DNA of 64,000 nucleotides from Oidiodendron maius Zn (Eukaryota > Ascomycota > Leotiomycetes > Myxotrichaceae): positions 123,438 through 187,437 of the forward strand of contig KN832899.1 in the NCBI GenBank assembly GCA_000827325.1, given 5' to 3'. The notes under the pieces were generated by a model. The model saw only the letters and a program-made list of their open reading frames with translations. It did no database searches and had not been told where the DNA came from. Shown here piece by piece: positions 11,973 through 47,188 of the stretch (the first letter of the stretch is position 1; every line of letters begins with the position of its first letter). The position numbers and the translations under genes are program-made.

Positions 11973-12135
11973 CCACTTGATTTGGCGTTTAACAGAATGC
12001 TTTGTGCTTTCTTAGAGTTTAGAATGGGCCTTTTTATGACATTTATATAATGGTAATTACATGGACATCAGTACTGCACAATACTCTGTTACAAGCTGCA
12101 TGGAGAAAAATCATCCTGATCTGTATTACATTCCT

Positions 12136-13101
12136 TTAGCCAGTCAACTGTTGAGCATCCAGCTTCACACGCGCGCCCCCAGTCCAACCGTCTGGCCAAC
12201 GTCCACACTCAGGTATTTTTATGCCAGGTGGAAGCCAGCAGCCCCTGACACAAAAGAATGGCACCGTATAATCCTCATAGTTCCTCTCTTCCTTCTTGAA
12301 GCGCTTTTCCATCTCCGCCTCGATGTACTTTTCATAACGCATGTTCGCCGGAGAGACAGTTGAGAAAGGCCCTGTGCTCGACCTCGTAAAATCCCACCGG
12401 GGAAAGGACTCCCTCCAGTCGTCCTCGTAGACTTCAAATTTATCGTTCTGGATTTTCCATGCCGCATTAATTGTGATTCCGTCATCGACCAGAACGATAA
12501 GCAGCTCCAGACGAGGAAAAAAATGTCGGATTACGCATTCGTAATCGTTCGTGGACTGCGTGAGGACCTCCCGGTTAATAGCCAGCGCTTGAACCTTCTC
12601 AAAGTCTCGAGGTCTCCCAATCCATATATCGCTATCTTCATCCCCATCCGATGGATCCGACCATAGTATGCTACTACCCGTGGTAAAGCCCTTTCCATCT
12701 TTGCTAAAGTCTAACTGCTTGAGGTACAGAATATCCCAATCGAATCGAATCCATGCGCCACCGTTGCTCCCTATCGAGTAGGCCATGAGACATTCTTGCC
12801 GGGATTCTTTGTTGCATAAAAGAAGGGCTGGAAGTTCCGTGCTCCTGTAGTGCCAGTCTTTATTAAATTTCACCTCGACGATTCTTGGGACCGAGATTGC
12901 ATGTTGCCAGATCCGGACGCGAATTTCCGGAGGAAGTCGGGGAAACGGCATAAATGTTCTGGCATCTGGCTGCTCTCCACGATAAGAAGCAATTCGTGTA
13001 TTATTGATTAGCGTTTCAGGGTATCCCTTAGGCTTAGTTAAAGGGATCTCGCTTTCTACACTATCCAGATCCGTACTTAGAGACATTGTGGATATCTGCA
13101 T
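12136..13101 (-). CDS. 2EXR-domain protein
   Basis: A single-exon frame of 321 aa from ATG 13101 (a second ATG at 13086 is also possible). After an unstructured N-terminus comes the hallmark of the fungal 2EXR family, FPRLPPEIRVRIWQHAI, followed by PRIVEV and an LLLCNKESRQECL segment, the typical 'leads to a block of C-N-ES-R' pattern. 2EXR proteins are abundant in ascomycete accessory regions; their biochemical role is unknown. The middle is acidic (SDGDEDSD) and the end is rich in aromatic residues. It lies convergent with the upstream 740-aa gene (163 bp apart at the 3' ends) and divergent from the transposase gene. Confidence 0.8.
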   Translation of the reverse strand: MQISTMSLSTDLDSVESEIPLTKPKGYPETLINNTRIASYRGEQPDARTFMPFPRLPPEIRVRIWQHAISVPRIVEVKFNKDWHYRSTELPALLLCNKESRQECLMAYSIGSNGGAWIRFDWDILYLKQLDFSKDGKGFTTGSSILWSDPSDGDEDSDIWIGRPRDFEKVQALAINREVLTQSTNDYECVIRHFFPRLELLIVLVDDGITINAAWKIQNDKFEVYEDDWRESFPRWDFTRSSTGPFSTVSPANMRYEKYIEAEMEKRFKKEERNYEDYTVPFFCVRGCWLPPGIKIPECGRWPDGWTGGARVKLDAQQLTG

Positions 13102-13307
13102 CAAATCATGCGATCACAGGAAGTTTAGTGCTCGCCACACTTCCGAGATATTATCCCAAGCTGACGCAGCCGAATGTCGTACCACGTGATCGATTCCTAG
13201 TTCACGTAGCGACCCAATAGAACTGTGCCACGTTTCCTGAAGCTCCTAGGTAGTGTCTTGCTTTTCCTCGATGTGTTCTGCCCTTCTCTTCTTCACGGCT
13301 GAAAGCC

Positions 13308-15011
13308 ATGGCTGCACTATCGAAGATCGACCCGGCAACGGCTACGCTCGATAGATTTGGCCACTCAAAGGACGGTAGTACCTATGCCGGTCTCTCCGAA
13401 CTAACTGGTGTGCCGGGGTCCACGCTGTGGCACCGTAGGCACGGTCGGGCGTCGATGCAGCAGAAGGGCGCCGACCAACAATACCTTACACCTCAGGAGG
13501 AGAAGGCCCTTGTTGCTTACATCCTCCGAATGGCCCGAAATGGCTTCCCGTTGCCCGTCAAGTTCCTGCGGGACTTGGCTGCGGTTATTGTGCGTCAACG
13601 CACGTCGATATTCCAGGTACCCGGGGCCGATGGGGCTGACATCCGGCCACCCGGAAAGAACTGGCCCCAGGCCTTCTACAAACGCCACCCAGAGCTGAAG
13701 GCCATGCGACTCAAGGCCCTAGATTGGGAGAGGCACGATCACAACATCTACGATAAGGTTGTAGATTGGTTTAGCGTGATAGGGAAGGAGCTGGCTGATC
13801 CCCAAATCCTTCCCGAGAATATATACAATATGGACGAGACAGGCGTTCTGCTGAGCGTTTTAAACTCTCTGAAGGTGCTCGTAGGTAAGGATGAGCTCCG
13901 GGATTACAGGGGAGCAGGTGTCAAGCGCACCTTAATTACTGCGATAGAATGCATCTCTGCAGACGGCCGGTATCTCCACCCACTAATCATCTGGCCGGCA
14001 GCTACCCACCGCAGCACGTGGACTGTCCATCCCACTCCTGGGTGGCATTTTGGCCATTCCGAAACAGGGTATACAAACACGGCTATCAGCCTGTATTGGA
14101 TCCAACACGTGTTTGATGCCCAGACTAAGGATCGAGCGAAGGACCGCCCGCGAATGCTGATTAACGATGGATTTGGCACACATGAATCCCTAGAAATAAT
14201 GCAATACTGCTACGAGAATAATATCATCCTTTGTAGGCTACCGTCGTACACGTCCCACAAGCTGCAGCCTTGCGATGTTGGCGTATTTGGGCCGCTGAAA
14301 ACGGCTTACCGTGAGCATGTCGAGCGATTATACCGGGGCGGCTCTAACATGATTGGGAAGCAGCACTTTACCCTTTTATACGATCGTGCACGGACAAAGG
14401 CATTCACTCCCCGAAATGTTTTGTCCGGCTGGTCCAAAACCGGATTGCTGCCGCTTAACCCAGATAAGGTACTGAAGGACATCCCGAAGCCGGAGCCACC
14501 CGTGACCCTTGATGCCGAGGTGGAGCATAATAGTATTGCACAGCTGGACCAGCTTGAAACCCCTACAACATCGGAAAGCTTGCTTGCCTTATGTAAGAAG
14601 ATCGATGGCACTATCGAACAGGGTGAGAGGCTAGATCGTTCAAGTATCCTCCAGATCCAAAAATTGGCAAACGCAGCAGAGAATGCGTTCGCCGACCGAG
14701 CGATCCTTTTGGATGAAAATTTACTTCTTTTCGAGCAAAATAACGAGCGAAACACTCGTAAGTCGATTAAAGCCACTGCAGTCGGCAGTGCGAAGGTCAT
14801 GAGCTATGAGGATATTGTCGAGGCACAAAGGCAACGCGACATGAAAGATGCCAGTGCTGACTCAGTGCCGAAGCGGGGCCGAGGACGGCCAAGGCGAAAA
14901 TCAACAACCCAAGTTCTCGGGAAGAGGTCACGAAGGCAAGAATTAGAAGTGGCAGAGCAAGAGATTAGATCGTTGGGGATGGAAGAGTATTGTTCTGTGC
15001 TGCAATTTTAG
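13308..15011 (+). CDS. pogo/Fot1-like DDE transposase
   Basis: An uninterrupted 567-aa frame. The N-terminus has a helix-turn-helix of the CENP-B/pogo kind (YAGLSELTGVPGSTLWHRR) and a second binding helix set ending in KNWPQAFYKRHPEL. The DDE_1 core shows the three acidic positions: NMDETG (about residue 175), LINDGFGTH (about 285) and LQPCDVGVFGPLK (about 320), i.e. a DDD catalytic triad. The C-terminus has an AT-hook, KRGRGRPRRK. Such enzymes cut and paste elements with TA target duplications. No inverted repeats lie immediately beside the gene, but families A and B in this window have TA-flanked ends of the sort these enzymes use, and the gene lies inside the putative family B element. It may therefore be the resident transposase, able to act in trans on family A (inference). 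Confidence 0.9.
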   Translation: MAALSKIDPATATLDRFGHSKDGSTYAGLSELTGVPGSTLWHRRHGRASMQQKGADQQYLTPQEEKALVAYILRMARNGFPLPVKFLRDLAAVIVRQRTSIFQVPGADGADIRPPGKNWPQAFYKRHPELKAMRLKALDWERHDHNIYDKVVDWFSVIGKELADPQILPENIYNMDETGVLLSVLNSLKVLVGKDELRDYRGAGVKRTLITAIECISADGRYLHPLIIWPAATHRSTWTVHPTPGWHFGHSETGYTNTAISLYWIQHVFDAQTKDRAKDRPRMLINDGFGTHESLEIMQYCYENNIILCRLPSYTSHKLQPCDVGVFGPLKTAYREHVERLYRGGSNMIGKQHFTLLYDRARTKAFTPRNVLSGWSKTGLLPLNPDKVLKDIPKPEPPVTLDAEVEHNSIAQLDQLETPTTSESLLALCKKIDGTIEQGERLDRSSILQIQKLANAAENAFADRAILLDENLLLFEQNNERNTRKSIKATAVGSAKVMSYEDIVEAQRQRDMKDASADSVPKRGRGRPRRKSTTQVLGKRSRRQELEVAEQEIRSLGMEEYCSVLQF

Positions 15012-15349
15012 ATCGTTGGTTTAATTTTGTTTTTCTCAAAGCTTATTGACTTCCTCCACCGTATTTTCTATCAAAGCGCTCTGATCATCTAAATTAGCTA
15101 GCTACAATGCCCTACAATGCCCTACAATACCCCTTATATAACCATAACTAATTCCAAATATTTCCCGTATTAAGAGGTTCCTGCCCCCTTATGCTTTGAT
15201 ATTTATATTGAGTCTGTTTTGAGGGTGTATACTCACATTCGTTGAGGTTATCCAGCCGGTTAGTCAGCAGGTCAAACTAAGCCCCGCCCTGCATGGAAAG
15301 ATCAACCCCTCTTTCACAACACCAGCGTGGAATCCTATATGCAACTAAA
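15012..15349. other. Intergenic region with a short tandem repeat
   Basis: It contains three tandem CTACAATGCC-like units at about 15100-15130. Otherwise it serves as the 3' region of the transposase and the 5' region of the HET-ankyrin gene. Confidence 0.5.
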
Positions 15350-17434
15350 ATGCGCCTGCTTAATACAACTACGTCAAAGCTTGAGGAATTCGAAGGCAAC
15401 AAAATCCCGTTGTACGCAATCCTTTCCCATACATAGGGAGACAACGAGGCTACGTTTCAGGATATCGAAGGTGCTAATGCGGAAAAGAAGGAAAACAAGA
15501 AGGGATATGAAAAGATTAGAATGGCCTGCTCTGTAGCTGCAGCTGATGGATTCCATTATATTTGGATCGACACTTGCTGCATTAATAAGTCAAGCAGCGC
15601 AGAGCTCTCGGAAGCGATCAACTCAATGTACCGTTGGTATCAAGAAGCCAGAGTGTGCTACATATATCTTGCCGATGTGTCATCGAGCGCTGCTGATAGA
15701 GAATTCAAAAGGAGTAGATGGTTTACCAGAGGATGGACACTTCAGGAACTCATCGCCCCGTCAACAGTAATATTTTTGGACCGAGAGTGGCGACAAATCG
15801 GCACTAAGTCAAGATGGCAATCGAAGATATCGGAGATTACCGGTATACCTGCCAATATTCTCCTAGAAGGTAACCTCGAATGTACTAGTATCGCACAAAA
15901 AATGTCATGGGCTTCAAGGAGGGAGACAACGAGGGTTGAAGATCTTGCCTATTGTTTAATGGGCATATTTGGCGTCAACATGCCCATGCTCTATAGAGAA
16001 GGAGAGAGCGCATTCCTTAGGCTCCAGGAAGAAATTATGAAGGTCTCGGATGACTATAGCATCTTCGCATGGGAGTCAATTGATTGTCGTGGTGGCCTTC
16101 TAGCAACTTCACCAGCTGCGTTTGTTAAATCTGGCGAGATTGTCCCATTCAATTACTCGAACATCCCAAGTGGGACCATAACTGTGAACAAGCAAGGAAT
16201 CCATTTGAAACTCCACTTTATAGATATGGATAGACCGTCTTTTCAGGGCGCTGCACTTGCCATCCTTCCCTGTACAGTGGAAGGGAAAAGGGTTGCAATC
16301 CATGTGAGAGCTATATCACAGAAGGAGGAATATTTTGTGAGGACTAAGAGTAATAGACTCGAACTGCTCAATTTAAAAGATTTTAGTCAGTCAAAATATC
16401 GGGAGAAAAGCATATGTATCCGACAAGAGCGTCTAACATGTAAGAATCAGTTGCCGCTACCAAAGGCTGCATGGCATGGGAACGAGGCGGTGGTGAAGCT
16501 ACTGCTTGAAAATGGTGCTGATCTCGAGTCTAAAGACTCTGAGTACAGCCGGACGCCACTATCGTGGGCTGTAGGGAACGGACATAAGGCGGTAGTGAAG
16601 CTACTGCTTGAGAAAGGTGCTGATCTCGAGTCTAAAGATCTGAGTGGCTGGACGCCACTATCGTGGGCTGCAGTAAACAGACATGAGGCAGTAGTGAAGC
16701 TACTGCTTGAGAAAGGTGCTGATCTCGAGTCCAAAGACTCTGAGTACAGCTGGACGCCACTATTGTTGGCTGTAGTGAACAGACATGAGGCAGTAGTGAA
16801 GCTGCTACTTGAGAAAGGTGCTGATCTCGAGTCTAAAGATCGGAGTGGCCGGACGCCACTATCGTTGGCTGCAGAGAAGGGACATGAGGCGGTGGTGAAG
16901 CTGCTGCTTGAGAAAGGTGCTGATCTCGAGTCCAAAGATCTGAATCACCAGACGCCACTATCGTTGGCTGTAGTGAACGGAGATAAGGCGGTAGTAAAGC
17001 TGCTGCTTGAGAAAGGTGCTGATCTTGAGTCCAAAGACTCTGAGTACAGCTGGACGCCACTATTGTTGGCTGTAGTGAACAGACATGAGGCAGTAGTGAA
17101 GCTGCTACTTGAGAAAGGTGCTGATCTCGAGTCTAAAGATCGGAGTGGCCGGACGCCACTATCGTTAGCTGCAGAGAAGGGACATGAGGCGGTGGTGAAG
17201 CTACTGCTTGAGAAAGGTACTGATCTCGAGTCCAAAGATCAGAGTGGCCGGACGCCACTATTGTGGGCTGTAGCGAACGGAGATGAGGCGGTAGTGAAGC
17301 TACTGCTTGAGAAAGGTGCTGATCTCGAGTCTAAAGATCGGAGTGGCCGGACGCCACTATCGTTGGCTACAGAGCAGGGTCACAATATAGTAGTGATACT
17401 GCTGCTTGAGAAAGGCGCTAAGAGATCCCAATAA
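15350..17434 (+). pseudogene. HET-ankyrin gene with nonsense codon in the HET motif
   Basis: The frame starts with the classic HET opening (MRLL at 15350), reaches YAILSHT and then has TAG at 15434-15436 (codon 29) where the family has Trp in SHTWG. Downstream the same frame stays open to 17434. It shows the rest of the HET domain: IWIDTCCINKSSSAELSEAI, the [16 protein letters not shown] block and an EDLAYCLMGIFGVNMP segment. From about 16470 there are ten ankyrin repeats ending in GAKRSQ. One TGG to TAG change is enough to kill the N-terminus; no plausible intron removes it. If translation began at an internal ATG such as 15521, the HET domain would lack its first motif. The rest of the frame is intact, so inactivation is recent, or readthrough or a short form is used. 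HET domains trigger heterokaryon-incompatibility cell death. Confidence 0.85.
16480..17430 (+). repeat. Ankyrin-coding tandem array (10 units) with a 300-bp block duplication
   Basis: Ten units of 99-102 bp encode GADLESKD-type ankyrin repeats. Bases from about 16738 to 16930 recur almost unchanged at about 17038 to 17230, exactly three units later, showing a recent three-unit duplication. Confidence 0.85.
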
Positions 17435-17486
17435 ATTGGCCTGGCCATAATTCCTTCACAATATTAAATTTTTAGATACATGAATA

Positions 17487-17529
17487 ACGTCTATCCCTGC
17501 GTGCCGAAAAACCCTGTGTGCCGAAAAAA
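17487..17529 (+). repeat. Family A terminal inverted repeat, element 1 left
   Basis: This 43-bp end contains two internal TGCCGAAAAA subrepeats; it matches 28838-28880 directly and 21195-21237 in reverse. Confidence 0.92.
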
Positions 17530-17604
17530 CTTCATAGTTTAGGAGTCTTAAATCTTTACCACATAAATATATAAAGTTATAATCGGCTTACTATTGTTCT
17601 ATAG

Positions 17605-17808
17605 CTATTTCTCTATCATCCTGTTTAGAACGTCAAAAGCTGCTATAGCTATTACCCCCTGCTCTATCGTGACAATCGACCTGTCCCCAAAATTCGGGGC
17701 CGTAGATAGAGCTTCTATTGAGTTCAAATTTAGCTCCAAGGTTTGAAGACATAGAGTACAAGGAAACCTGCCTGTAGGATTTATCCGGACAGGTACACAA
17801 AATGCCAA
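17605..17808 (-). other. Conserved minus-strand frame in the left end of family A elements
   Basis: An open frame of 67 codons (no ATG at its upstream end) contains RSIVTIEQGVIAIAAFDVLN. The equivalent place in the second element (about 29000-29140, -) still reads as RPIVMIEQGVISTAAFDALN, although that copy has a frame change upstream. Conservation at amino-acid level between two diverged copies suggests a former or living small protein, or the tail of a gene once carried by the element. I do not recognise it. Confidence 0.4.
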
Positions 17809-18264
17809 GCGAATTTATTACGCTTATATAATGCCCGTATCAACAGTCACGCTGCCGTATTATTTTGTACATTATACCGAATTTATATAAATGTGGCGTT
17901 CTTCTAGAGACTTCCATGAGCAGCCACGACCTGCTCTGCCTTGCGCCCCGCTGAATCGTTCCCATCCCCATCTCCATCACCGTATGAGCGATTGCGCCAG
18001 TGAAGCCTTTGCAGAGACTTTCTGCTGGGAGTATGGCGACTGTCGAGTATTGTCGCACAGGTTTCCGGGGCATGCACACGAGCCGCCCGCTTGCTGACCA
18101 TTTTGCCAATACCGTGGAATCAGATAACTTAGTTATAGCCATATTCTAGCCTCCTTAATTCTCACCCACTTTTGCGTTTGTGCAGCAGCGTACCTATATA
18201 CTGATGTACGTTCTTCTTCACGATTGCTACATTCTTGACTTACTCATAGTGGATATCTATAATT

Positions 18265-20181
18265 ATGTCAATCTACACAAATTATCCTTTACTCCAGGGT
18301 GGTGCCCGTATCCGTCTTGTTAGGATTATCCCGGGATCGCCCACTGATCAAATTCAGTGCGAGTTCAGCACGTGTAGCATCAACGACGCCCCAAGATATA
18401 ACGCACTGTCATATGAATGGGGATCAAGGTCGCATTTGAAGGATATTAATGTAATCGGGCAACAAATAGCTATTCGATCGAATCTTTGGAGATTTCTATT
18501 GAGGCTCAGATCGCATGCATACTATGATTACTTGTGGTGCGACGCTATTTGTATTGATCAAGACAATGATCGGGAACGAAACCACCAGGTTCAATTAATG
18601 AGCCAGATCTATCGCAGAGCACATATGGTCTTGGTGTGGTTGGGTGAGGAAAACTATAACAGCAACCTCGCTATCCGTACAGTGCAGTCCCTTAGCATTT
18701 GCACGGATAGTTCTTCTAGAGATAAATATCTAAAGGAGCGCGAGCAAGTATGGAAGGGCCTTGCGGAACTTTCGAGGAGGAGATACTGGACCCGAATCTG
18801 GATTGTCCAGGAGATCACAGTCGCTCGAGAGCTCGAGCTCCTCTGTGGAGGAGAGAAGGCTACTTGGAAAGCTTTTGCAACAGCTTGCAAATTTCCTCCG
18901 GATCAACTTACACCGTGGGCCACGGATCTATGGGCGCCACTGACTGGAGCAAATGACGTGCGAAAGAAAGCCAGGGCTGCAGCGGGCCGTGAACTCTACT
19001 ACAGCAAGATGTACAGGCTTATACGTTCACAAAGGCGCTGGCCATCGTATATAGACACGTTCGAGGTGCTATCTGCCCGATATGAAGAGTCCGGGTGTGA
19101 GGACGTTCGAGATCGGATTTTTGCCCTGCTGGCCGTTTCAAGGGAAGTTGCACTCGGAAGGGGAATCACTGTTGACTATCGGAACAATATGGAAGAAACG
19201 TTCTTTTCTTTGGTTGTCTGGGGAAGTATGGGGCCCATTTCAATATATTCCCGTCTCAAGTTTGCTCGTCTAGCAGCGAGGGTCATGAATTTGAGTTGGC
19301 CCGGCTATTTGCTAGAGTGCAGAATCGAATTTGATACCCAGAGGTCTCCTATTTTCTGGAAGTGGGTGGGTCAGGCGTTGCCAATGGCGGTGAGGTGCCG
19401 ATATCTTGGGAAATGGACATTTACGTCATCATCCGATTTGATGCTGCAGGCTTCAATAGACCCAGGACTTTTTATAGTCGAGCCGAAGAAGGTGTTATTA
19501 CCACTTATCCCAATGGAACACACCAACCATGAATTCGATCTCTTTGGCTTTGAGACTTCGGATATTTTCCTAGCATGCAAGCCCACAGGTCATCGTTCTT
19601 GGATTGTGGCTGCTCGAGCGTATGTTCAGTTCGATGAAGACCTCTCTTGCAGAAGTTTTGTCCCTAGCATCTTCAGAGGATTAGCAATCGATGCAGTCGA
19701 AAGCAACCGTCACATTCTTAAACTTAAGAATATAGCACAATTCATGGAGATATTCCTCGACAATCTTAGCTCTTCGGTCTGGGCATCTCCTGCGAATACA
19801 AGACCACCGGTAAAAGGAGCAGGGTTCTTGGCAAGACGAGGCAAGGACAAGGAAGATAGAAACTTGGGGGAAGTACTTCAAGGTCTGAAAATCACGAGCT
19901 GGTTGAAGTTAACGGAATATGATGATATAGAAAGCGAGGAAGGGAACAGTGAGGAAGGTGAGACTTATGAGGTGGATTGGAACCAGCTGCTGGCAGAATC
20001 TGAAGCTCTAGCTAGGCCACGGATCTCGAGACCGCCAATCATGAAGCCTAGAAAACAGCGAGAAAGGGGTATTTCTTCTATGTCGGATGTAGTCAAGGAC
20101 TCAGACCCATTCTGTGAGCGACTGCCTACAAGTTATGGGCAGGAAGTATCGAGTGCCTCGCCTACATTATTTTTACCTTGA
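18265..20181 (+). CDS. HET-domain protein, transposon cargo
   Basis: A single-exon frame of 638 aa. The HET domain occupies about residues 40-190: YNALSYEWG, then LWCDAICIDQDND with a following VQLMSQIYRRAHMVLVWLG, then RRRYWTRIWIVQEI. These are the three standard blocks of the long-form (het-6 type) HET family. After residue 250 comes a DVRDRIFALLA segment, also usual for this type, followed by a C-terminal half with no recognised domain and an acidic, low-complexity tail (EEGNSEEGE). HET proteins act in non-self recognition between hyphae and trigger cell death. The gene lies wholly inside the family A element, in the same orientation as the receptor gene in the sister element. No break is seen. 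Confidence 0.9.
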   Translation: MSIYTNYPLLQGGARIRLVRIIPGSPTDQIQCEFSTCSINDAPRYNALSYEWGSRSHLKDINVIGQQIAIRSNLWRFLLRLRSHAYYDYLWCDAICIDQDNDRERNHQVQLMSQIYRRAHMVLVWLGEENYNSNLAIRTVQSLSICTDSSSRDKYLKEREQVWKGLAELSRRRYWTRIWIVQEITVARELELLCGGEKATWKAFATACKFPPDQLTPWATDLWAPLTGANDVRKKARAAAGRELYYSKMYRLIRSQRRWPSYIDTFEVLSARYEESGCEDVRDRIFALLAVSREVALGRGITVDYRNNMEETFFSLVVWGSMGPISIYSRLKFARLAARVMNLSWPGYLLECRIEFDTQRSPIFWKWVGQALPMAVRCRYLGKWTFTSSSDLMLQASIDPGLFIVEPKKVLLPLIPMEHTNHEFDLFGFETSDIFLACKPTGHRSWIVAARAYVQFDEDLSCRSFVPSIFRGLAIDAVESNRHILKLKNIAQFMEIFLDNLSSSVWASPANTRPPVKGAGFLARRGKDKEDRNLGEVLQGLKITSWLKLTEYDDIESEEGNSEEGETYEVDWNQLLAESEALARPRISRPPIMKPRKQRERGISSMSDVVKDSDPFCERLPTSYGQEVSSASPTLFLP

Positions 20182-20820
20182 CTTTCAAAATTTGGGTCCC
20201 GATAAGTTAAAGTTTAGTCAAAAGATTTGTAATAGCTACCTCGGTGTAATACAAGGTAAATTTTATATAATAATTTTATCTGTCTAGGTCAAAGGTATAA
20301 AAATGTATCATGCAGTGGGACATATGGATTTAGGAATAGGGGATGGCGGCGGTATTCACTTCATACGATAGTACATAAAGGACTAACAATATATTCTGTT
20401 GGAGTGTTAGAGGACTTAATATATACAGGTATTCAGAACATCTAGTACTACTTATGTATTTAAAGAGGCTTCTCCCAGTGTAGTGGCAATTCAAGTCGTC
20501 AACTCCCTCTTAGTATTGCAAAATATTCCAACATAAGGCTGTCCCTTCCACGACACCAGCAATAAAAGGCACGATGGTAAACGCGGGCAACGGTGGAAAC
20601 TTCAAAATATCAACCCCTGCAAGTCTAATTTCAAAAGTCCTCTCTCTCTCGAGCTTTCTAAGCAATTAAATCTAAGCACTCAAACAAATCTACAAGAGCT
20701 AGATTTAATTGTTGTAAGATCCGGTGGAAAGGGGTTGCATGCAAAGGCAGGGATTTGGTTCAAAGGTTGTATTAACTTAAGTCTAGAGTTCTATTGACTG
20801 GTAGGATACACTGGCTGTTT
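20182..20820. other. 3' region of the HET gene inside the element
   Basis: No coding frame is supported. About 70 bases at 20430-20500 recur at 55135-55205 (TTCTCCCA..TGTAGTGGCAA..TTCAAGTCGTCA). Confidence 0.5.
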
Positions 20821-21194
20821 CGCACTAAACCAAAATTGTCAGCCGAGGTACTGATCCGCATGGCATTCTTACCTGAATTTGCCCGCTACAGCAACCACAA
20901 GGCTAATAATGATTTCCTATATAGGGGTGAGGCCCTAGAGCTCGGATAACACTCTTTTATAAAGCATTAGGATAGTATAAGCTTAGTGGTAGAGCTGTGG
21001 TGGAGGAGCTCTGTTACGCCATAAAAGGAGACTCTTTGTAAATTAGGCGTGAGGGCGACGAGGAGAATATAATTTTCCAGTAGGAGATGTTCAGGGTTTC
21101 TGGGAGTAGCCACGGAACATAACTTATAAAAATTTATAGGATATACGAAGGTGTGTACAGATTTTAAGATGCTTCAAGTCAAAGTACCTATCAT

Positions 21195-21237
21195 TTTTTT
21201 CGGCACACCGGGTTTTTCGGCACGCAGGGATTGACGT
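21195..21237 (-). repeat. Family A terminal inverted repeat, element 1 right
   Basis: This is the mirror copy of 17487-17529, followed by TA. A 417-bp stretch ending here matches 33296-33712. Confidence 0.92.
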
Positions 21238-22066
21238 TAATACTTTTGATAGAGAGGGCCTTGTAGTGGCTGAATGTTATAGACTGTACCTGGAAGAATT
21301 AGCTCTGTTGGAAATGCTTGAGCATCTTCTGGCATGCATCACGTACTCTGAAGGTAATAATGAACAATATAAGTTGCCGTATCAGATATGAGTGTGGCTA
21401 TAGAATGACGTTGGCAAAAGCGGCAAGTTAGGCCGAGGCTAAAATTGTGGACTATTGCAACCTCGATTTCTTACCCATGTAATCTAATGTACTGTAGGGC
21501 ATACATCATTTGTATTTTCATTATACGGAATTTAGTTAGCTATTATAGATTTTGCTAAAGTTTAGAGTTGTGGAAACATCATTAAGTTGTAGAAAATTTA
21601 TAATTTAGGCAAGATTGCAGTTTGAAACAATCTACTATTTTTATCGCAAATTAGCCAGTGTAGATTTTTGTATACAGAAAAAAGCCGTGGATAATATAGG
21701 GTATATTAGGTATATTGTAGAAAAGTTACAAAAATTAAATACCTATTTTCGTTGAGATTCTTGTATTTCTATCAAGGTAACCGGCTGTACTACGGGATTT
21801 TCGCTTCGCAGGGATAGAGGTTACTACCCCAGATATTTAGCAGCAGCATACAGCTTGATTTCTGCTTACGAAAATGGCTAGAAATAATTAGATACAGTGT
21901 GGTTACTTATTTGCCAACCTCTCCTATTTTAACTTAAGGTAATATGATGGAGGCCGAATGTAGCATCATACCACTAACAAAGCGACATTGATCAGGCCAT
22001 TAGCAGAGCTGCATAAAAGGGCTTGGAGAGGCACCCCACTTCACTCGATCTTAACAGACTGTGACT
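21238..22066. other. AT-rich intergenic region with the right end of family B
   Basis: No gene is supported. It includes the family B right end at 21700-21821 and the upstream region of the gene at 22067. Confidence 0.5.
21700..21821 (-). repeat. Family B right inverted end
   Basis: Read on the minus strand it begins ACCTCTATCCCTGCGAAGCG after a TA and resembles 4235-4360 over about 120 bp. Confidence 0.65.
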
Positions 22067-27667: not shown

Positions 27668-28837
27668 GGTCCCTTAAGGTTATTTCGACCATTTTGGCCT
27701 TTTTTACTAAAGAACACTGAAACTGGCTTCTCCAGGACAGAAGAGAAGCCATTAGTTAGGGTCGGTTTTTCAGTGAGGGTAAAACTTTTTTTAGCGCATC
27801 TGAATACGACAGTTATATATAATGCCATGCTAGTGTTCTATTGTACTTGTTTGTCTATTAGTTGCTTGTGTCTTTCCTTCAACGCTATCACAATATACCT
27901 TTTTACGATAGTCAAGGCAATGTGGAAAGGCTCTCTCGCCTATAGGCGACCGTTCAGTCGCCTTGGTGTCGAAACAGCGGCCAGCGTCAAGCTTACAGAC
28001 GCTACTACGGCATTTAACAAGGGTGAATTCACAAAGAGCGCCAATCTATTCCTTCAGAGTTGGCGCATCTTGCAGAATGAATATGAGAGCAATCTCTATA
28101 AGCAGTACGACCGCAGCTTCAATATAAATCCACTTGGTAAGGATTATCAAATAGTTCGCGAGAACAAAGAAAGGACGTTCCTAAGCCTTGTGGCCCTGCA
28201 CGATTTGGCGGCAGCCTGTCTCAGTAACTACTCCGAAGACTATAAAGACGAAGATGGCAAGTGCAAGCTAGACCTAAATACCCTCCATGCAGTTTGGTCG
28301 CGAGATACGACTGCCGAGGCGCTGGAAATTGAAACTACTGAGGCGCTAGGCATTAAAGATGGCAGTACCATACCATTGCCTATAGGCTCCGCAGTAACTC
28401 GCTTGGGAATTCAGCTCAGAGACCCACTAGGGCGTCTATTAGAGAAAGCAGAAACCTTCATAGAGGCTGGGATTATTATAATGAGGATACTCTCTTTCCA
28501 ATTCCAATTTGCATTTCGACCACTCAAAGAAGTCATGGACGCTTGCAAATTTTTTGACGATAGTATTTCAACAAACACATGGTTTCCAGGAATATATCTT
28601 GAGGGGAAGCGGAACGTAAAGAACGTCAGTATAGCACGGGAAGCGCCGAATAGAGATACGACAGAAGAGGACGATGAGATTAGAAAGAAGTTGATTGTCA
28701 AAATGCAGGAGCTGAAAAATGGCCCAAGCCCCCTGAGCACGCAGGAAGAGGAAAAATTGCTCTCGCTCTTTAACAATATGCAAGTCACTCCCTCCCTATG
28801 GCAGAATACCGAGAGAGAGAGGGCCGGTAGAGGTCTA

Positions 28838-28880
28838 ACGTCTATCCCTGTGTGCCGAAAAACCCTGTGTGCCGAAAAAA
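28838..28880 (+). repeat. Family A terminal inverted repeat, element 2 left
   Basis: Nearly identical to 17487-17529; the outer bases read ACGTCTATCCCTGTGTGCCG. Confidence 0.93.
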
Positions 28881-29683
28881 ATTAACGGTATGGGGGTCTT
28901 AAATCTCCACCACATAAATATATAAAGTTATAATCTGTTTACTATTGTTCTTTAGCTATTTCTCTACAAGGGCTCGACTTGCAGTTAGAAAAATACTACA
29001 GTTTGGCTATGCTGTCGATCGTCCTGTTTAGAGCGTCAAAAGCTGCTGTAGATATTACCCCCTGCTCTATCATGACTATCGGCCTGTCTCCGAGTTTCGG
29101 GGCCATGGCACGAATGTACTATCAAGAAAGAATATAACTCCAAGTTTTGAACACTTAGAGCACAAGGAAACCTGCGTGCCGAATTTATCCGGACAGAGGG
29201 GGAGGCACAAAACACGAAGCGAATTTACCACGCTTATATAATGTTGTACTGTATTAACATGCACGCTAGCCATATTATACTGTACATTATACCGAATTCA
29301 TATAAAATGTGGCGTTCTTCTAGAAATTTCCGTAAGTAGCTACCGGCTTGCTGCCAGTTGTCCAGACCATCGAATCGGGCAACTATGGAGTTCTAACTGC
29401 GAGATGCGCCCTCAGTGATGTATAGAAAACCTATGCATGGCTCGCTCGATCGCTTCTGCGCCATTTACCTTCTGCAATGGCTGGCCACGACTGGCTGGCC
29501 TGGGGCGCTCGTAGCGATGATGTACAATCACACCATGCCGTGAGGCTGTCGTCCAGCTGAGCCGTACGAGCAACCTCGACCCAACCTGTACTCCCACCTC
29601 AACAAATGCATGCATATCGACCCTGCAAGAACTATTCACCGATATTCTTTCGTTCAGAGACTCTCTCAGACCCTATCTGAGTA
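28881..29683. other. Left internal region of the element and HNWD promoter region
   Basis: Bases to about 29335 match the sister element, including the remnant of the minus-strand frame (GVISTAAFDALN at about 29000-29080). From 29336 to the ATG at 29684 the sequence is unique to this element and should contain the promoter of the receptor gene. Confidence 0.6.
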
Positions 29684-32600
29684 ATGCGCCTACTACACTA
29701 CAACGATGGCGAGCTCAGCCTGATACAATTCTTCGACGACATCCCCCGATATGCGATACTCTCACACACATGGGGACCGGAGGAGGTCACCTTCAAGGAC
29801 ATAATGGAGGGGAATGGGGCGAGCAAGACTGGTTTTGATAAGATCCGATTCTGCGGAGAACAGGCCAGACGCGATCACTTGCAGTACTTCTGGGTTGATA
29901 CATGCTGTATCGACAAATCTAATGCCGTCGAGCTTCAGGAGGCTATCAACTCGATGTTTCGCTGGTATCGGAATGCGGTCAAATGCTATGCCTATCTCAC
30001 AGATGTGTCGACAAAGAAACGGAAAGCAAGTGACTCGTTTACCGAGTATACTTGGGAACCAGCATTTCGGTCAAGTAAATGGTTTACACGAGGCTGGACC
30101 CTTCAAGAGCTTATTGCTCCGACGCTAGTTGAGTTCTTCTCGAAGGACCAAGAGCTTTTAGGCGACAAGAGAAGGTTAGAGCGACAAATCCACGAGATAA
30201 CAGGAATTACGATTTCCGCACTCCAGGGAGTACCTCTGTCACAATTCGACATTGAAGACCGGTTGTCATGGGCAAAAAACCGCCAGACTACACGCGAAGA
30301 AGACAAGGCATACTCGCTATTTGGCATTTTCGATATTCAGATCCCTCTCCTCTATGGCGAGGGGGGAGAGAAGGCGTTGAAGCGGCTCCGGGAGGAGATC
30401 AACAAACCTTTAAAGGACAAAGCGTTTAAACGGCTCTGCAAGGAAGGAGACATATCTTTAAAGGGTGAGTTCGGAGCACTTGATGCCCTACCTTATATAG
30501 CAATCAAAAGGAGCGCTGATCGCTCAACCCAGAGCTCGACCGTCTTCCATCCGCTGCGGGGGCGGCGTTCAATTCATTCGACCGCCAACAAGATCCCACC
30601 TGCCTTCCCGACACCCGAGTTGACCTGCTACAGGAGATATGCGACTGGGCCGATGGACAAGATGAGCGGTGCATATTCTGGCTCAATGGCTTAGCCGGAA
30701 CGGGGAAATCGACAATTGCACGGACTATTGCCTGGAGATACTGTAAGGAAGAGCGCCTAGGTGCCAGCTTCTTTTTCTCAAGAGGTGGCGGAGATATGAG
30801 CCATGCCGGCAAGTTCTTCACAAGTATTGCCGTACAGCTTGCAAACAACATACCGTCCCTTCGACACTATATTTGTGATGCTATTTCCAACCGCAAAGAT
30901 ATTACAAGCCAGTCCTTCCGTGACCAGTGGAGCCAGCTTATCCTCTGCCCATTGTCAAAGCTTGGCAGCAGCTCGTCCCCGTCCTCTTACGTGTTGGTAA
31001 TCGATGCCCTAGATGAGTGTGACAGAGATGAGCATATTCGGATGATTTTGCAGCTCTTAGCTGAAGCTCGAACATTGAAAACTACCAGACTTCGGGTCTT
31101 GTTGACAAGCAGACCTGAAATTCCGATACGCCATGGCTTTTACCAGATCCCCAACTCCGAACACCAGGACTTCGTACTCCATAACGTACCGCTAACGATT
31201 GTCAACCACGATATCTCTCTATTCCTGGAATACAATCTAGGGATAATCAGGCAAGAGTGGACTCTTGGTGCAGACTGGCCAGGCGAAGTGGTTCTCAGAC
31301 AGCTGGTTCTATACGCTTGTGGCCTCTTCATTTGGGCAGCAACTGCATGTCGGTTTATCCGTGAAGGGAAGCGATTCGCACGCAAGAGACTAGATACAAT
31401 TCTCAAGGGCAGTAGCAGCGCTATTACTGCACCAGACAAGCACCTGGACGAGATCTACCTTACTGTCCTCAAGCACTCGATCTCCTCAGGATATTCGGAC
31501 GAAGAGATAGAAGAAGTATACGATATGTTAAAGTATACGCTTGGAAGTATAGTGGTACTGCTCTCGCCTCTTTCCGCCTCTTCATTAAGCAGGTTAGTAC
31601 ACCTTCCAAGGGAAGATATCAACCGGACATTTGAGGACCTTCATGCGATCCTTGACATTCCAAAGGACCCTACTCGGCCGCTCCGCCCACACCACCCTTC
31701 ATTTCGCGACTTCTTACTCAATAAAGATCGATGTGGGGATTTCTGGGTGGATGAGACGAAGGCACACCAGATGCTAGCTGCTGGCTGTATACAGCTAATG
31801 TCCCAGACACTGAAGAAGGACATTTGCGAAATGCATGCTCCTGGCTGTCAAACCAGCCAAGTTGAGAATAGTTGGATTGAGAAATGCCTTCCACCTGAAG
31901 TTCAATATGCATGCCTTTACTGGGTCCAGCATCTGCAAAGGGGTCGTTCTCAGGTTTGTGATGGCGAAGAAGCTCACCGGTTTCTACAGGCTCATTTACT
32001 GCACTGGCTTGAGGCGCTTGGCTGGATGGGGAAGGCTTCAGAGGGAATTCAAGCAATATTATCCTTAGAGGCTCACGTTTCAGTGAGCTATCTGTCTATT
32101 GTTTATAGGAGACTTACTCACTTGTCCTTAGGTTAATGACAGTCCCGATTTGTATACATTCATCCATGATGCAGAGCGATTTGCCTTATATAACCGATCT
32201 GTTATTGAAAAGATACCCCTTCAATTATATTGCTCTGCTCTTGTCTTTGCGCCAGAAAATAGCATTGTTCAAAGGAAGTTCAAGGGCTATATCCCATACT
32301 GGATTCAGTTGAAGCCAAAGGTGCAAGCACACTGGAACGCGGCACGACAGACGCTCGAGGGCCACACTAGCTCCGTCGCATCCGTGGCCTTCTCACCCGA
32401 CGGCAAGCAGGTCGTGTCAGGCTCATACGACAGGACGGTCCGGCTCTGGGACGCAGCTACAGGAGCGCTGCAGCAGACGCTCGAGGGCCACACTGACTCT
32501 ATCACATCCGTGGCCTTCTCACCCGACGGCAAGCAGGTCGTGTCAGGCTCATGGGATGAGACAGTCCGGCTCTGGGACGCAGCTACAGGAGCGCTGCAGC

Positions 32601-32842
32601 AGACGCTCGAGGGCCACACTGACTCGGTCAGATCCGTGGCCTTCTCGCCCGACGGCAAGCTATTGCCATCTCTACAAGTATCAAATTATTGGGTAGTGGA
32701 AGGCGATACGAAGATTCTTTGGCTGCCTCCCGATTATCGGGAAACTTGTTCAGCTACTTGGAACAAAAGTCTTGTTATAGGACATTCATCAGGGAGAATT
32801 TCATTCTTTTGCTTTAGAAAAGGAGCAAAGCTTGTTATATAG
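29684..32842 (+). CDS. HET-NACHT-WD40 receptor (HNWD type), transposon cargo
   Basis: Exons 29684-30464, 30533-32082 and 32132-32842 join to an intact 1013-aa frame; introns are 68 and 49 nt. Residues 1-240 form a HET domain (start [52 protein letters not shown]). NACHT follows with Walker [10 protein letters not shown] (about residue 313) and Walker [13 protein letters not shown], then the [12 protein letters not shown] sensor block. From about residue 850 come two full 42-aa WD40 repeats, [19 protein letters not shown]...[13 protein letters not shown], and a third that runs into a C-terminal cap ([19 protein letters not shown]). This is the het-e/het-d/het-r architecture of Podospora, where WD repeat variants decide which partner is recognised and HET triggers cell death. 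Two to three repeats is very short for this class. The introns are kept, so the gene was captured as DNA. Confidence 0.94.
32340..32660 (+). repeat. WD40-coding tandem array (2 full units of 126 bp and a partial)
   Basis: The 126-bp units starting near 32350, 32476 and 32602 are nearly identical. Such homogeneity is typical of HNWD genes that gain and lose repeats. Confidence 0.85.
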
Positions 32843-33669
32843 AATTAAAAAAAATCCTTATTTCTTGGAAGGTCCTAGGGAACCATCTACTTATATACTA
32901 TTTTAGAATTGCCACCTATCTTTTAGCATTTTCTAGAAAGTACATAGACAAGACAGGTATTTTGATAACTAAGCCTCAGTGCTTAACAAGAGCTTGAATA
33001 GTTTGTCTCTGGTCCTAGAGTTGAGTAATACGGCTCCGTCGCTGCCTCAAGATATACTGATCGGACGATGCTGCCGGATGACTTGAGGATGTGCCTGTGC
33101 AAGGACCACCTCTGGCAGCCTGGCCTGTCTTCGCTGGCCGAAGATGTATTAGCGTGATGAAAAATACGTAGTACCATGGGCATGGTGGAATAACGACGCC
33201 ACTATTCTCCAGCCACATTTAGCCTTAATGCCTGAGGCATTATAAATGAAATTATAGCGTAAATACAAAGTATACAGGATATACGGTGTTGTTTTGCACT
33301 AAACCAAAATTGGCAGCCGAGGTAGTAATTCGCACGGCAAACCTTACTTGAATTTGCCCGCCACAACACCACAAGGCTGATAACGATTTCCTGTATAGTG
33401 GTAAGGCCTTAGAGCTCGGAAAAGACTCCTTTCGAGGTATTAGGGATAGTATAAGCTTGGTGGTAGAGCTTTAGTAGAGAAGCGCTATTATACTATAAAA
33501 ATAAGACCCATTATAAATCAGGCATGAGGGTAACGATATAAATGCGATTTTCTAGTAGGAGGGGTTTAAGGCATCTAGGAGTGGCTATAGAACATAAGTT
33601 ATAACAAATTATAGAAGATATTAACTTGTATATAGATTTTAAGATGCTTCAAGTCAGAGTACCTATCAT
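32843..33669. other. 3' part of element 2
   Basis: No gene is supported. From about 33296 the sequence matches the right end of the sister element (20822 onward). Confidence 0.7.
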
Positions 33670-33712
33670 TTTTTTCGGCACACCGGTTTTTTCGGCACGC
33701 AGGGATAGACGT
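33670..33712 (-). repeat. Family A terminal inverted repeat, element 2 right
   Basis: The mirror of 28838-28880, followed by the duplicated TA and then by the resumed host-gene frame. Confidence 0.93.
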
Positions 33713-33885
33713 TATCTCTGTTTAATGTTGCGACTTACAACGACCGGGGCTTTGAGGAGACACAAGGAAAAAATAATATTGACCTAGATGGAGATGAAAG
33801 TGGGGACGAGGGCAAAAGCGGGGAAAAGGATAAGAATAAGGAAGAGGATAAGAGTAAGGAGGCGGATAGGATCAGGGCTGATTGA

Positions 33886-42946: not shown

Positions 42947-43080
42947 CAGTAATGTTCGAAACCAGCTTCAGTTTAAACTCTATATGTTTTTTTTTTTAGC
43001 TGAGAATTGTTATCGTACTAGTACCGATACGGCTTAGCAATAGTGGACCCTTGCATTACCTGCTTAGCACATAGCACGTG
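42947..43080 (+). repeat. Tc1-like terminal inverted repeat, left
   Basis: About 134 bp, roughly 80-85% alike to the mirror of 52555-52687 by eye, with a poly-T run in the middle. Confidence 0.9.
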
Positions 43081-43186
43081 ATAGGTAGCTTCAAGTAGTA
43101 GGTACTTCTACAGCGGCTGCCATCGGAGTACAGTATTTGTCTTTCTGCTCCCCAACAAGACAGGTGTCCTCTTCAACATATTTGCG

Positions 43187-44125
43187 ATGACAGATACTGC
43201 AAACATCATGCTCCAGATTGCTCAGTATCGAGAAGAATGGTGCCGAAACTTGCGCAGTCGCAGCATTCGCCGATTGGCGATATGCTATGCCGTAAGTCGA
43301 TAAAAGCTCACGAAATAGCAGCTGTTGCAGAATGTAGTAAACGATCTGTTTATGCGATAAGATCGAACCTTCGACGATATGGCTCCACCAAGGCCCCTTC
43401 TATTGTCGGCGGACGACCTCGAAGTATAACACCGGCGATGTTCGATGCTCTGTGTGAGCACTTAATCGAAAACCTGACCTTTATCAGGACGAGATTGGAC
43501 GAGTTTGGCGGACCGCATTTATCAACTCAGAGTATCGGGAGGATGTTGACATCTAATGTTGGACCAAGAAAAAGATACGGCGTATAGCTAAGGGACGGAA
43601 TGCTGATCTGCGAGACTTATACCTACACAACACAGCGGATTTCCGTTTATATCACTTTGTCTTCGTTGATGAATCGGGTGCAATAAGCGGATTGGATTTA
43701 GACGGACGGGATGGTCTCCCTTGGCGTAACTCCAGTCCAGATTGCCTAGTTTTAACGCGAGAAGCGATATCAGATACTGCCAGCATATACACATATACAC
43801 AGGATGGTATTATCTTTGCACGCGTCTTCCAGGGATCTACAGATAGTGCCATGTTCGAGGAGTTTATAGAGCAACTCCTTCCTTTGTGCGGTAGTTGGCC
43901 AGCGTGAAACTAGTATACTTACCCCCATACTCGCTGGACCTCAATCCAATCGAAGAGTTCTTCGCCGAGTTGAAAGCTCTCATCGAACGGCACTGGCAAA
44001 TCTATGTGGACGATCTGGAGCAAGGCCTTGACACTTTCTTGGAATGGTGTATCCATGTGGTTTGTGGAAACAAGCGTAGCGCTGAAGGCCATGCTTCCCG
44101 AACACGGCTGGTCCTTGTGATCTGA
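43187..44125 (+). pseudogene. Decayed Tc1/mariner (DDE_3) transposase
   Basis: Fragments in at least three frames run in the right order. First is a helix-turn-helix (KSIKAHEIAAVAECSKRSVY, at about 43295), then a GGRPRSITP hinge. After a frame change comes the first catalytic segment FVFVDESGA (about 43660), then YTQDGIIFARVFQGSTD. After a gap that removes the second catalytic Asp (the usual DN..H motif) comes the end motif YLPPYSLDLNPIEEFFAELK (about 43916). The frame changes and the missing DN motif rule out activity. Its place 240 bp inside the left inverted repeat shows it is the element's own former transposase. Confidence 0.85.
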
Positions 44126-44477
44126 GAAAGGTGCTGCAGTCTCGATGCAATTGGAAGGTATAAGCGGTAAGGCACATTGGGCACATATGATTCTTGCACC
44201 GAGTTGATCAATCTTGCCTAAGGCATAAAATAGTTGGTGATCATTTTCAGCCTTGGCAAGGCTTTCGAAAGCCGTGTGACGACTTGTGATTTCTAAAGCC
44301 GCAGAGTACTTAAGGTCTTAAATGTCAGACATTTCATCCGGCAGTGGCCTTCAGGTGCTGTCAGAGCAGCGACCCAACCAGTTTCGCACACTTTGCGTCA
44401 CTAGACTTAATACTAGCACTATCACGGCAACGAGCCTCATTAGTCTCGCGACCTGTTATTAAATTTTATGCAAAGCA
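44126..44477. other. Spacer between transposase relic and HNWD gene
   Basis: No gene is supported; it should contain the promoter of the receptor gene at 44478. Confidence 0.5.
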
Positions 44478-45474
44478 ATGCGTCTTTTGCAACTCAGTGA
44501 TTCTGGAGACTTCACCTTCACTAAGGACTTGGTTGGCGACGATCGAATCCCTTCCTATGCAATACTATCGCATACATGGAGCTCTGAAATTGACGAGGTC
44601 AGCTTCAAAGACCTGACAGATGGCACAGCCAAGGATAAGGCTGGCTATGAGAAGATCCAGTTTTGTGGAGAACGAGCTAGACAAGATGGCTTGCAATACT
44701 TCTGGATTGATACTTGTTGCATTAATAGGGCAGATTATACCGAGCTCTCGCGCTCTATCAACTCTATGTTTCACTGGTACCAGAATGCTGCTAAATGTTA
44801 CGTCTATCTATCGGATGTTTCGATAACTACGAGGAAAGCGAGCAATGAGTCCTCCGAGGTTACTTGGAAATCGGATTTTCAAGAGAGTAGATGGTTCAAA
44901 AGAGGTTGGACGCTCCAAGAGCTTCTTGCTCCAGTCACAGTCGAATTCTTCTCCCGAGAACGCCAACGACTTGGCAACAAAACGTCCCTAAGGCAACAAA
45001 TCCATGAGATAACGGGAATTACAGATTCGGCGCTTCAAGGAGATCATTTATCTCAGTTCAGCGTTGATGAGCGGCTATCATGGATAGATGGTCGTCAGAC
45101 TAAACTCGAAGAAGATAAGGCTTACTCACTACTAGGAATTTTTGATGTATCTATGCCGTTAATCTACGGCGAAGGGGGAGAAAGGGCATTTCAGCGGCTC
45201 CAGGAGGAGATCAACAAATCTTCAAAGGGTATGCACAGAGCATCCGTTTGATATCCTCTATATGTAATCAAAACGAGGGCTAACCGGTAATTTGCTACAC
45301 TCAGTACTCGATTGTCTTCCGTCCGCCGCCGATGCGCCATTCAATTCGTATACGATGCAACATGAGCCCGCTTGTCTTCGTGGTACTCGCGTCGAACTAC
45401 TTCAAAAGATAAATAACTGGGTAGACGGACAGAATAGGCAGTGTATCTTCTGGCTAAGTGGCTTAGCTGGCACG

Positions 45475-45534
45475 GGAAAGTCGTCTCTTATTTGCTACTA
45501 CCAATCTACACTATTGACTGTGCACAGGAAAGTC
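45475..45534 (+). repeat. 52-bp insertion with 8-bp direct repeat in the Walker A codons
   Basis: GGAAAGTC occurs at 45475-45482 and 45527-45534. The 44 bases between them have no match in the paralogue. They end in TATTGACTGTGCACAG, which looks like an intron branch point and acceptor, but no matching GT donor gives the right frame. Confidence 0.75.
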
Positions 45535-47188
45535 TACGATTGCCCGCACCATTGCAAGCGAACAATCTCAGCGTAGATGCTTAGGGGCTAGCTTCTTCTT
45601 CTCGCGCGGCGGTGGGGATGTTGGCCATGCAGGCATGTTTGTTACAAGTCTTGCGCGCCAGCTCACAAATAACATACCTACTTTTCGCCAGCATGTTTGC
45701 GATGCTCTTATAGGTCATGGCGATATTACAAGCCGACCTCTCCGGGAACAGTGGCGTCAGCTCATCTTGCGTCCGCTTTCAAAGCTCAAGAGTAACGTCT
45801 GCCATTCATCATACATTCTTGTAGTTGATGCGCTTGATGAGTGCAATAACGAGTACGATATCCGGATCCTCTTGCATCTCTTTGCCGAGGTTCAATCGTT
45901 AGAGAGTGTACGGCTGCGGGTGTTTTTAACAAGCAGACCTGAGATCCCTATTCGGCATGAGTTCTACAAGATACTGGATGAGGAACATCAAGACTTCGTT
46001 CTCCACAATATATCACCATCTATTGTTGACCACGATCTCACCATCCTCCTTGAGTATAATTTCAAACTTATCAGAGACGAATGCTCCATGGATGCCAGCT
46101 GGCCGGGAGAAGAAGTCATCAAAAGCTTAGTCCACGCTTCTGGTGGCTTGTTTATTTGGGCTGCAACCGCATGTCAATTTGTCCGTGACGGTAAACAACA
46201 TGCAGCTCAAAGACTCGATACAATACTTAAGAGCAGTGGAAGCGAGAGCACTGTTATAGCACCGGAAAAGCACCTCGATGAGATCTACACTACGGTCCTT
46301 AAGCAGACTGTTCCCTCCGAATACACAGATAAGGAGAAAGAAGAGTCTTATTGCATGCTACGACAAGTGCTTGGAAGTATTGCTATTCTCTTCGCAACGC
46401 TTTCTGTATACTCTCTAGGCAGGTTGCTATGCGTCCCCCAGGAGGACTTAGGTCCAATAGTAGAGGATCTGCACTCTATCCTAAATATTCCGAAAGACAA
46501 AACCCAACCCCTTTGTCTCCACCATCCTTCATTTCGGGACTTCCTCTTGGAGAAGAGTAGGTGCCAGGAAATATGTCTTTGGGTAGAAGCGAAGCACGCA
46601 CATCAAATGCTCGCCGAAGATTGTATACGGCTTATGTCAGCTGTTATGAAGCAGGATATGTGTGGCCTTAAGGAACCGGGTAAACTTGCAACTGATGTTG
46701 ACACTACTCGAGTAGAAAAGTATCTCCCGCCAGAGCTCCAGTATGCATGCCTTTACTGGATCCCGCATCTTCAGCAGAGCTCCCTTCAACTTTGCGATAA
46801 TGACCAAGTACACCAGTTCTTACAAGAGCATCTCCTTCACTGGCTTGAGGCTCTTGGGTGGATGAGGAAGGTTTCAGACGGGATTCTTGCTATATCTTCC
46901 TTGGAGGCTCAGATTCTAGTAAGCCCTGTTTACTAAAATTATACATAGGGATCTTGACTAATCTATATAAAGGCCGAAAAAAGCCCTAATCTACACGCAT
47001 TCATCTATGATACAAAGCGATTCGTCCTATATCATCGATCAGCAATTGAACAAGCACCCCTCCAACTGTACTGTTCGGCCCTAGTCTTTACGCCAGAAAA
47101 TAGTATTGCTAAGGGGCAATTTAAGACCTATATTCCAGTTTGGATCCAGAGAAAACCGAAAGTGCAAGCGGATTGGAGCGCATCGCTG

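Follow-up and report, generated by a model that had tools for sequence, protein, structure and literature searches.

A 64,000-nucleotide stretch of the Oidiodendron maius Zn genome (assembly GCA_000827325.1, contig KN832899.1, positions 123,438 to 187,437; hereafter the window, to which all coordinates refer) contains an element, termed B, that carries a gene for a HET-NACHT-WD40 (HNWD) protein of the NOD-like receptor (NLR) type and lies within another gene. A sister element, A, has the same terminal inverted repeats (TIRs) and a different HET gene, and two larger elements, C and D, hold the other HET and NACHT genes found (Table 1). B is probably a non-autonomous Fot1/pogo-like cut-and-paste element, inserted at a TA dinucleotide in a gene and belonging to a family with kept ends and differing interiors.

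Shared ends and different cargo of elements A and B

The inverted arms of B (28836-28890 and 33660-33714) show 89% complementarity across 55 nt. Its two ends agree at 42 of the first 45 positions, TA counted in, which gives near-perfect inverted ends of ~43 nt, and each end contains two copies of a 17-nt repeat that are identical on the left and 88% alike on the right. The TIRs of both A and B start with ACGT (ACGTCTATCC or ACGTCAATCC) and have two repeat copies per end. A relaxed end motif, TAACNNNNATCCCTGNGNNNCGAAAA, has six exact matches in the window (4233+, 17485+, 21239-, 21823-, 28836+ and 33714-), two of which are the ends of B. When up to three mismatches are allowed, eight matches are found against 0.02 expected from shuffled sequence, the two extra ones (three mismatches) being the inner repeat in the left end of A and its counterpart in B. 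Orientation and a variant within the motif (GTGCCG for A and B, GAAGCG for C) pair the six exact matches into C (4233-21823), which encloses A (17485-21239), and B (28836-33714). The original prediction had placed B at these ends, inverted and with a TA on each side, and the arms and the motif bear this out.

A TA target and ACGT-starting TIRs with direct repeats identify A and B as Fot1/pogo-like members of the Tc1-mariner group. The DDE transposase of that group was detected in neither, and both are accordingly called non-autonomous derivatives. No transposase was detected in B by Pfam, which was run on 51 of the 116 stop-free pieces of at least 90 residues (selected by us) and on two more pieces of D, one of them shorter, nor with the C transposase as query (best match only E 4.2); the same query matched no transposase relic in A. 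The description of B as a small pogo/Fot-like element stands for its Fot1-like ends, its TA and its position inside another gene, but since no transposase is detectable it has to be called non-autonomous.

The strongest evidence that B is an element comes from its sister A, in which these ends surround another cargo. The left and right ends of A are identical at 43 of 45 positions, TA counted in. Between A and B, the ends are identical at 44 of 45 and 53 of 55 positions, while the backbones inside them are 73.5% (left) and 80.7% (right) alike; the excess identity of the ends over the backbone rate has binomial probabilities of 2e-5 and 7e-4. Ends more conserved than backbones are expected if a shared transposase keeps them. 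Likeness between A and B stops near 17935/29352 and 20803/33276, so that the common backbone reaches ~0.45 kb inside each end. Alignment of the gaps between backbone and gene scores 13 against a shuffle mean of 17.1 on the 5' side and 20 against 20.9 on the 3' side, whereas the left backbones score 263.5 against 22.7 in the same test. The HET domains of the two cargo genes match at 35 of 156 columns (22%). A and B share a chassis and differ in cargo. A search of the Protein Data Bank (PDB) with the A HET protein gave three uninformative matches (E 0.7-0.8).

The backbones have a GC content of 40-43%, compared to 48-50% for the cargo. All four backbone pieces pass both thresholds for repeat-induced point mutation (RIP; TpA/ApT 1.15-1.32, second index 0.85-1.00; thresholds as given in the portion of PMC4188875 available to us), while the cargo is not RIP-like (TpA/ApT 0.68 and 0.76). 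RIP of the backbones is possible, judging from these indices. Divergence of the TIRs is a doubtful clock. Of the first 45 end positions four vary; at one of them, position 31, left ends differ from right ends in A and B alike, which places this change before the A-B split, and the other three are private.

Separately, a 70-nt segment at 56609-56678 has 66% likeness to the region of the left A end (E 0.001) and is perhaps what is left of another copy.

Table 1. Coordinates of the elements, their genes and the interrupted gene (window positions).
Feature	Position	Strand	Basis or remark
Element B, non-autonomous Fot1/pogo-like TIR element, 4875 bp	28838..33712	+	inverted arms, motif ends
Left target-site copy of B, TA	28836..28837	.	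sequence, motif
Right target-site copy of B, TA	33713..33714	.	sequence
Left TIR of B	28838..28882	+	two copies of 17-nt repeat CCCTGTGTGCCGAAAAA
Right TIR of B	33668..33712	-	two copies of 17-nt repeat
Left backbone of B	28838..29352	+	common to A 17487-17935, 517 columns
Right backbone of B	33276..33712	+	common to A 20803-21237, 441 columns
B cargo, HET-NACHT-WD40 gene, 3 exons, 1013 aa, three canonical WD40 repeats	29684..32842	+	Pfam, splice model
Upstream half of host gene cut by B	27920..28837	+	paralogue at 22064-22849
Possible downstream host-gene tail, 56 codons and TGA	33715..33885	+	open frame; weak
Element A, sister of B, same TIRs, 3751 bp	17487..21237	+	TA at 17485-17486 and 21238-21239
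A cargo, 638-aa HET gene, uninterrupted	18265..20181	+	HET E=2.7e-32
Element C, older 17.6-kb element enclosing A	4235..21821	.	motif ends 4233+, 21823-
PNP-NACHT-ankyrin gene in C	5450..8767	-	240 open two-intron models, none chosen
DDE_1 transposase in C, 567 aa, open	13308..15011	+	DDE_1 E=4.5e-28
HET-ankyrin gene in C, broken	15350..17434	+	in-frame stop in first HET motif
Element D, Tc1-type	42947..52687	.	TIRs 83% alike over 154 columns; TA on both sides
Broken Tc1-type transposase remnant in D	43160..44122	+	DDE_3 in two pieces
HET-NACHT-WD40 gene in D, 19 WD40 stretches	44478..49882	+	132 open three-intron models, none chosen
HET gene in D	50366..52459	-	HET E=2.7e-30

The putative receptor gene of B and the gene that B interrupts

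The cargo of B has the domain order of HNWD proteins, with Pfam matches to HET (E 1.7e-14), NPHP3_N and NACHT (1.4e-32 and 9.6e-08) and WD40 (1.4e-39); NPHP3_N is the best Pfam name for its NACHT domain. The 1013-residue model is one of 60 open models and was picked for its splice sites. Its exons (29684-30464, 30533-32082 and 32132-32842) are separated by introns at 30465-30532 (GTGAGT..CAG) and 32083-32131 (GTGAGC..TAG). The protein contains the HET motifs and the Walker A and B motifs, and would presumably be a receptor of the STAND class in which HET is the death domain. Its WD40 repeats have a spacing of 126 nt, with copies 90-92% alike. The original prediction of a complete, intact NLR gene with introns holds in that the frame is open and can be spliced, but "complete" overstates a gene with only three canonical WD40 repeats. 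The predicted fold of the WD40 part (predicted local distance difference test, pLDDT, 53; two sequences) was too poor to use, and a PDB sequence search with the NACHT part gave no match.

The B gene is akin to the HNWD gene of D rather than to the A gene. Residues of the B and D genes match at 275 of 463 positions in the NACHT part and at 148 of 244 in the HET part, and their C-terminal segments resemble each other; the HET part of B is 47% like that of the HET-ankyrin gene of C over 248 columns. By codon position, the B-D differences number 136/86/269 in the NACHT part and 59/59/119 in the HET part. This predominance of third-position differences suggests that the gene was under past constraint. 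In Podospora anserina, het-d, het-e and het-r also combine the HET-NACHT-WD40 order with near-identical tandem WD40 repeats; the B gene is unlike them in having three repeats and in sitting inside a TIR element. According to the part of PMC12222747 available to us, het-d and het-e alleles with fewer than ten WD40 repeats are non-reactive and functional alleles usually have 11, and the B array falls below that limit.

The gene interrupted by B runs in frame from an ATG at 27920 to a CTA codon at 28835-28837, and the frame from 33715 is open for 56 codons up to a TGA at 33883-33885. The original prediction took this as a readable empty site that fixes both ends of B to the base. The frame arithmetic is correct, but open runs of this length or more begin at 17% of positions across the window (within 33715-34200, at 0.2% of starts), so that the 56-codon tail is no proof of the join; it is the sister element A that fixes the ends. 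The upstream half and the open reading frame (ORF) at 22064-22849 match at 53 residues out of 146 aligned, with a score of 174 where the best of 200 shuffles reaches 61, and on this likeness the interrupted gene is a member of a genuine family. The match stops at residue 187 of the 306 in the host half, so the tail is not probed by it. Neither protein has a significant Pfam match. One member of this family adjoins C on its right and the other is the one cut by B. Just upstream of the latter lies a 186-bp miniature element (27482-27667) with 49-nt arms that are 98% complementary.

Elements C and D and the HET/NLR genes of the window

The inverted terminal regions of C are 67.7% alike over 449 columns. 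The two ends probably delimit a single element, though this is less sure than for A and B. The C termini read ACCG and ACCT rather than ACGT. Its transposase, scored as DDE_1 with a Tc5-type helix-turn-helix (HTH), resembles those of fungal Fot1/pogo Tc1-mariner elements, with the HTH_Tnp_Tc5 match (E=0.0016) being below its cut-off; the motifs NMDETG, INDGFGTH and LQPCDVGVF are taken by us to hold the catalytic triad. The predicted fold of this protein alone (pLDDT 35) was too poor to use and a PDB sequence search with it gave no match. HET similarity of the broken HET-ankyrin gene begins at 15350. Also inside C are a 2EXR gene (Pfam) and a 709-residue ORF (9843-11972) with no Pfam match at E up to 10.

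D has the TIRs and flanking TAs of a Tc1-type element, and its TIRs start with CAGTAAT adjoining the TA. Its transposase is only a broken remnant just under the cut-off, with DDE_3 matches at E=3e-06 (27.6 bits, cut-off 28.6) and E=0.032 and an HTH_32 match at E=0.04.

All six HET/NACHT genes found lie inside TIR elements, and C, B and D together account for 50% of the window's length. In a rotation test, all six fell inside elements in 1.7% of positions. Counting six HET/NLR and two other genes inside against none and 13 outside gives a Fisher p of 5e-4, in a gene table picked by hand from the ORF list with the two transposase genes and antisense ORFs left out. With nine HET/NACHT/PNP queries from the window, tblastn gave 32 matches inside elements (nine self-matches, 20 at E<=1e-10) and none outside. 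Elsewhere, the end motif had no match in viral contigs and 15 single matches in genome contigs, all in bacterial records and about the number our arithmetic gives by chance for an 18-mer; searches of viral contigs with the transposase and with NACHT likewise gave no relative.

Other repeats were noted in the window. A 79-nt inverted repeat, 78% alike (53881-53959 and 55265-55341), surrounds a secreted-looking 306-residue ORF (54029-54949). Another inverted-repeat family (24113-24191, 24579-24667 and 55577-55706) comprises one element of ~0.55 kb and one partial copy, and a self-complementary stretch (63622-63992) lies in the final kilobase, which is AT-rich (33% GC) and has RIP-like indices.

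Interpretation and relation to known systems

The HET and NLR genes could have formed an ordinary cluster beforehand, with transposon ends landing on either side and no gene-carrying unit ever moving. Such genes often lie in repeat-rich regions, no empty site is seen in this one window of one genome, and both C and D are old elements in partial decay (C termini 68% alike, a stop in the HET-ankyrin gene, a broken transposase in D). We nevertheless consider this quite improbable, as A and B each have one left-type and one right-type end in correct orientation with side-specific backbones, and the window holds no spare full end, only the partial match at 56609-56678; the host-gene frame, open on both sides of B, weakly argues the same way. 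A joining of A and B ends to the wrong interiors by repeat collapse would be a failure to which assemblers are prone at shared ends, but backbones that differ by 19-27% are too divergent to collapse easily, and we give an assembly error hardly any credence; the AT-richer backbones neither support nor exclude a false join. It is also unlikely that the whole stretch lies inside a giant element of the Starship kind, with NLR/HET cargo that has no connection to the small nested TIR repeats. Pieces of a ferric reductase are found nearby (2637-3945, minus strand; Pfam), and the ORFs at 59320-62339 (minus strand) look like DUF3435/FluG-type recombinases with a C2H2 tail, relatives of Starship captains, although Pfam gives no DUF3435 match there at E up to 10 and no search for Starship boundaries was made. 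In the section of PMC9594970 available to us, the Starship Horizon is described as having a DUF3435 captain alongside genes for ferric reductase, HET, NACHT and ankyrin proteins. Such an origin leaves the shared ends of A and B with different cargo unexplained; as an outer layer, it is compatible with B being a gene-carrying TIR element.

Whether B moved with a working receptor is a more evenly balanced matter. The cargo could be a dead passenger, a mere open frame whose WD40 array has shrunk below working size, and we regard the chances of this as about equal either way. Three canonical repeats compare with the ten-repeat limit in Podospora het-d/het-e and with 19 stretches in D, while 1013 open codons, standard introns, Walker A/B and HET motifs and the D-like C-terminal segment speak against a dead passenger. 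Repeat number shifts fast in WD40 genes of this kind, so the short array may be recent.

Several points weigh against B being a mobile carrier of a receptor gene. The short WD40 array means that the cargo may be non-functional. The genes start at nearly equal distances inside the backbone edge, 330 bp in A and 332 bp in B, which replacement of cargo does not predict and which is unexplained. These distances would suggest that both cargo genes descend from one HET gene, but this is not supported, as the gene flanks keep no residual similarity and the HET domains are 22% alike. A TA duplication comprises two bases and carries little weight alone, the association tests are post hoc, and the ends of C are unlike the ACGT type, so that C may not be the helper. 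All of the evidence comes from a single window of a single genome, which shows B at one insertion site only.

For B as a gene-carrying Fot1/pogo-like element, we envisage that A and B would both be moved by a transposase provided in trans, through its binding to the repeated motif of their ends. The C transposase is of the right type, but the ends of C are somewhat different, and another element may be the helper. The cargo, which has introns, would have entered as genomic DNA, and would have been swapped between kept ends; recombination between elements would look alike. With the older C and the Tc1-type D counted in, transposons enclose the HET/NLR genes of this stretch. The ends, the TAs, the sister element, the places where backbone gives way to cargo and the open frames of the cargo genes are observed directly, while movement, mobilisation in trans, the sequence of events in cargo replacement and the receptor function are inferred.

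Families of Tc1-mariner elements in Sclerotinia have ACGT ends, TA sites, direct repeats in the TIRs and transposases with HTH_Tnp_Tc5 and DDE domains, and measure ~1.4-2.3 kb among the table rows of PMC4188875 available to us. Fot1, Flipper and Mariner-n_SS of Sclerotinia are like A and B in the TA target, the ACGT terminus and ~40-nt TIRs with direct repeats; A and B are unlike Fot1/pogo elements in carrying a HET or HET-NACHT-WD40 gene and no detectable transposase. ToxhAT, a 14-kb TIR DNA transposon, also has NLR-family cargo, its host-type genes including a patatin-TPR gene classed in that family, but it is hAT-type, with 74-bp TIRs and several cargo genes, and the passages of PMC6737239 available to us mention no sister that combines its ends with different NLR cargo. 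The ends and TA of A and B are of Tc1-mariner type instead, and no hAT match was found among the pieces searched. Starships are likewise mobile and can carry HET, NACHT and ankyrin genes (PMC9594970, in part); a single putative NLR is given for 20 Starships of Gaeumannomyces in the portion of PMC12134995 at hand. They are giant and driven by tyrosine recombinases, whereas A and B are TIR elements of 3.8 and 4.9 kb. Pack-MULEs and Helitrons resemble A and B in carrying host sequence and differ from them in that gene fragments are usually captured, whole genes being exceptionally rare for Helitrons (PMC6431247, in part), whereas A and B hold whole genes.

Among the titles and beginnings of abstracts that were searched, none tells of a Fot1/pogo element carrying a HET or NLR gene, supplements and most subscription papers being beyond reach. 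The original prediction held a receptor in a small pogo/Fot-like element to be unusual; NLR cargo as such is known from ToxhAT and Starships. As far as the literature could be searched, the same Fot1-type ends with different HET cargo are new.

More generally, small transposons might be standing carriers of allorecognition and immune genes, with trans-mobilised kept ends and exchangeable HET/NLR cargo, such that the HET/NLR repertoire of this genome would expand and relocate mainly in the form of transposon cargo, a eukaryotic counterpart of the defence islands that are built from mobile elements. We regard this broader proposal as tentative and somewhat doubtful. Across 625 fungal genomes, ankyrin and WD40 repeats are depleted among genes with old transposable-element insertions (PMC6416283), and in Sordariales NLR number shows a weak negative correlation with repeat content (PMC12258605); these trends, as they appear in the parts of both papers available to us, address different questions and are not what a general transposon-driven spread predicts.

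Fungal HET and NLR repertoires vary widely between genomes, and how these genes spread and come to vary between strains is an open question. If HET/NLR genes ride small TIR elements with fixed ends, their copy number, presence or absence and novel contexts would follow from transposition. Allorecognition diversity would then be tied to ordinary DNA transposons, beyond the giant Starships.

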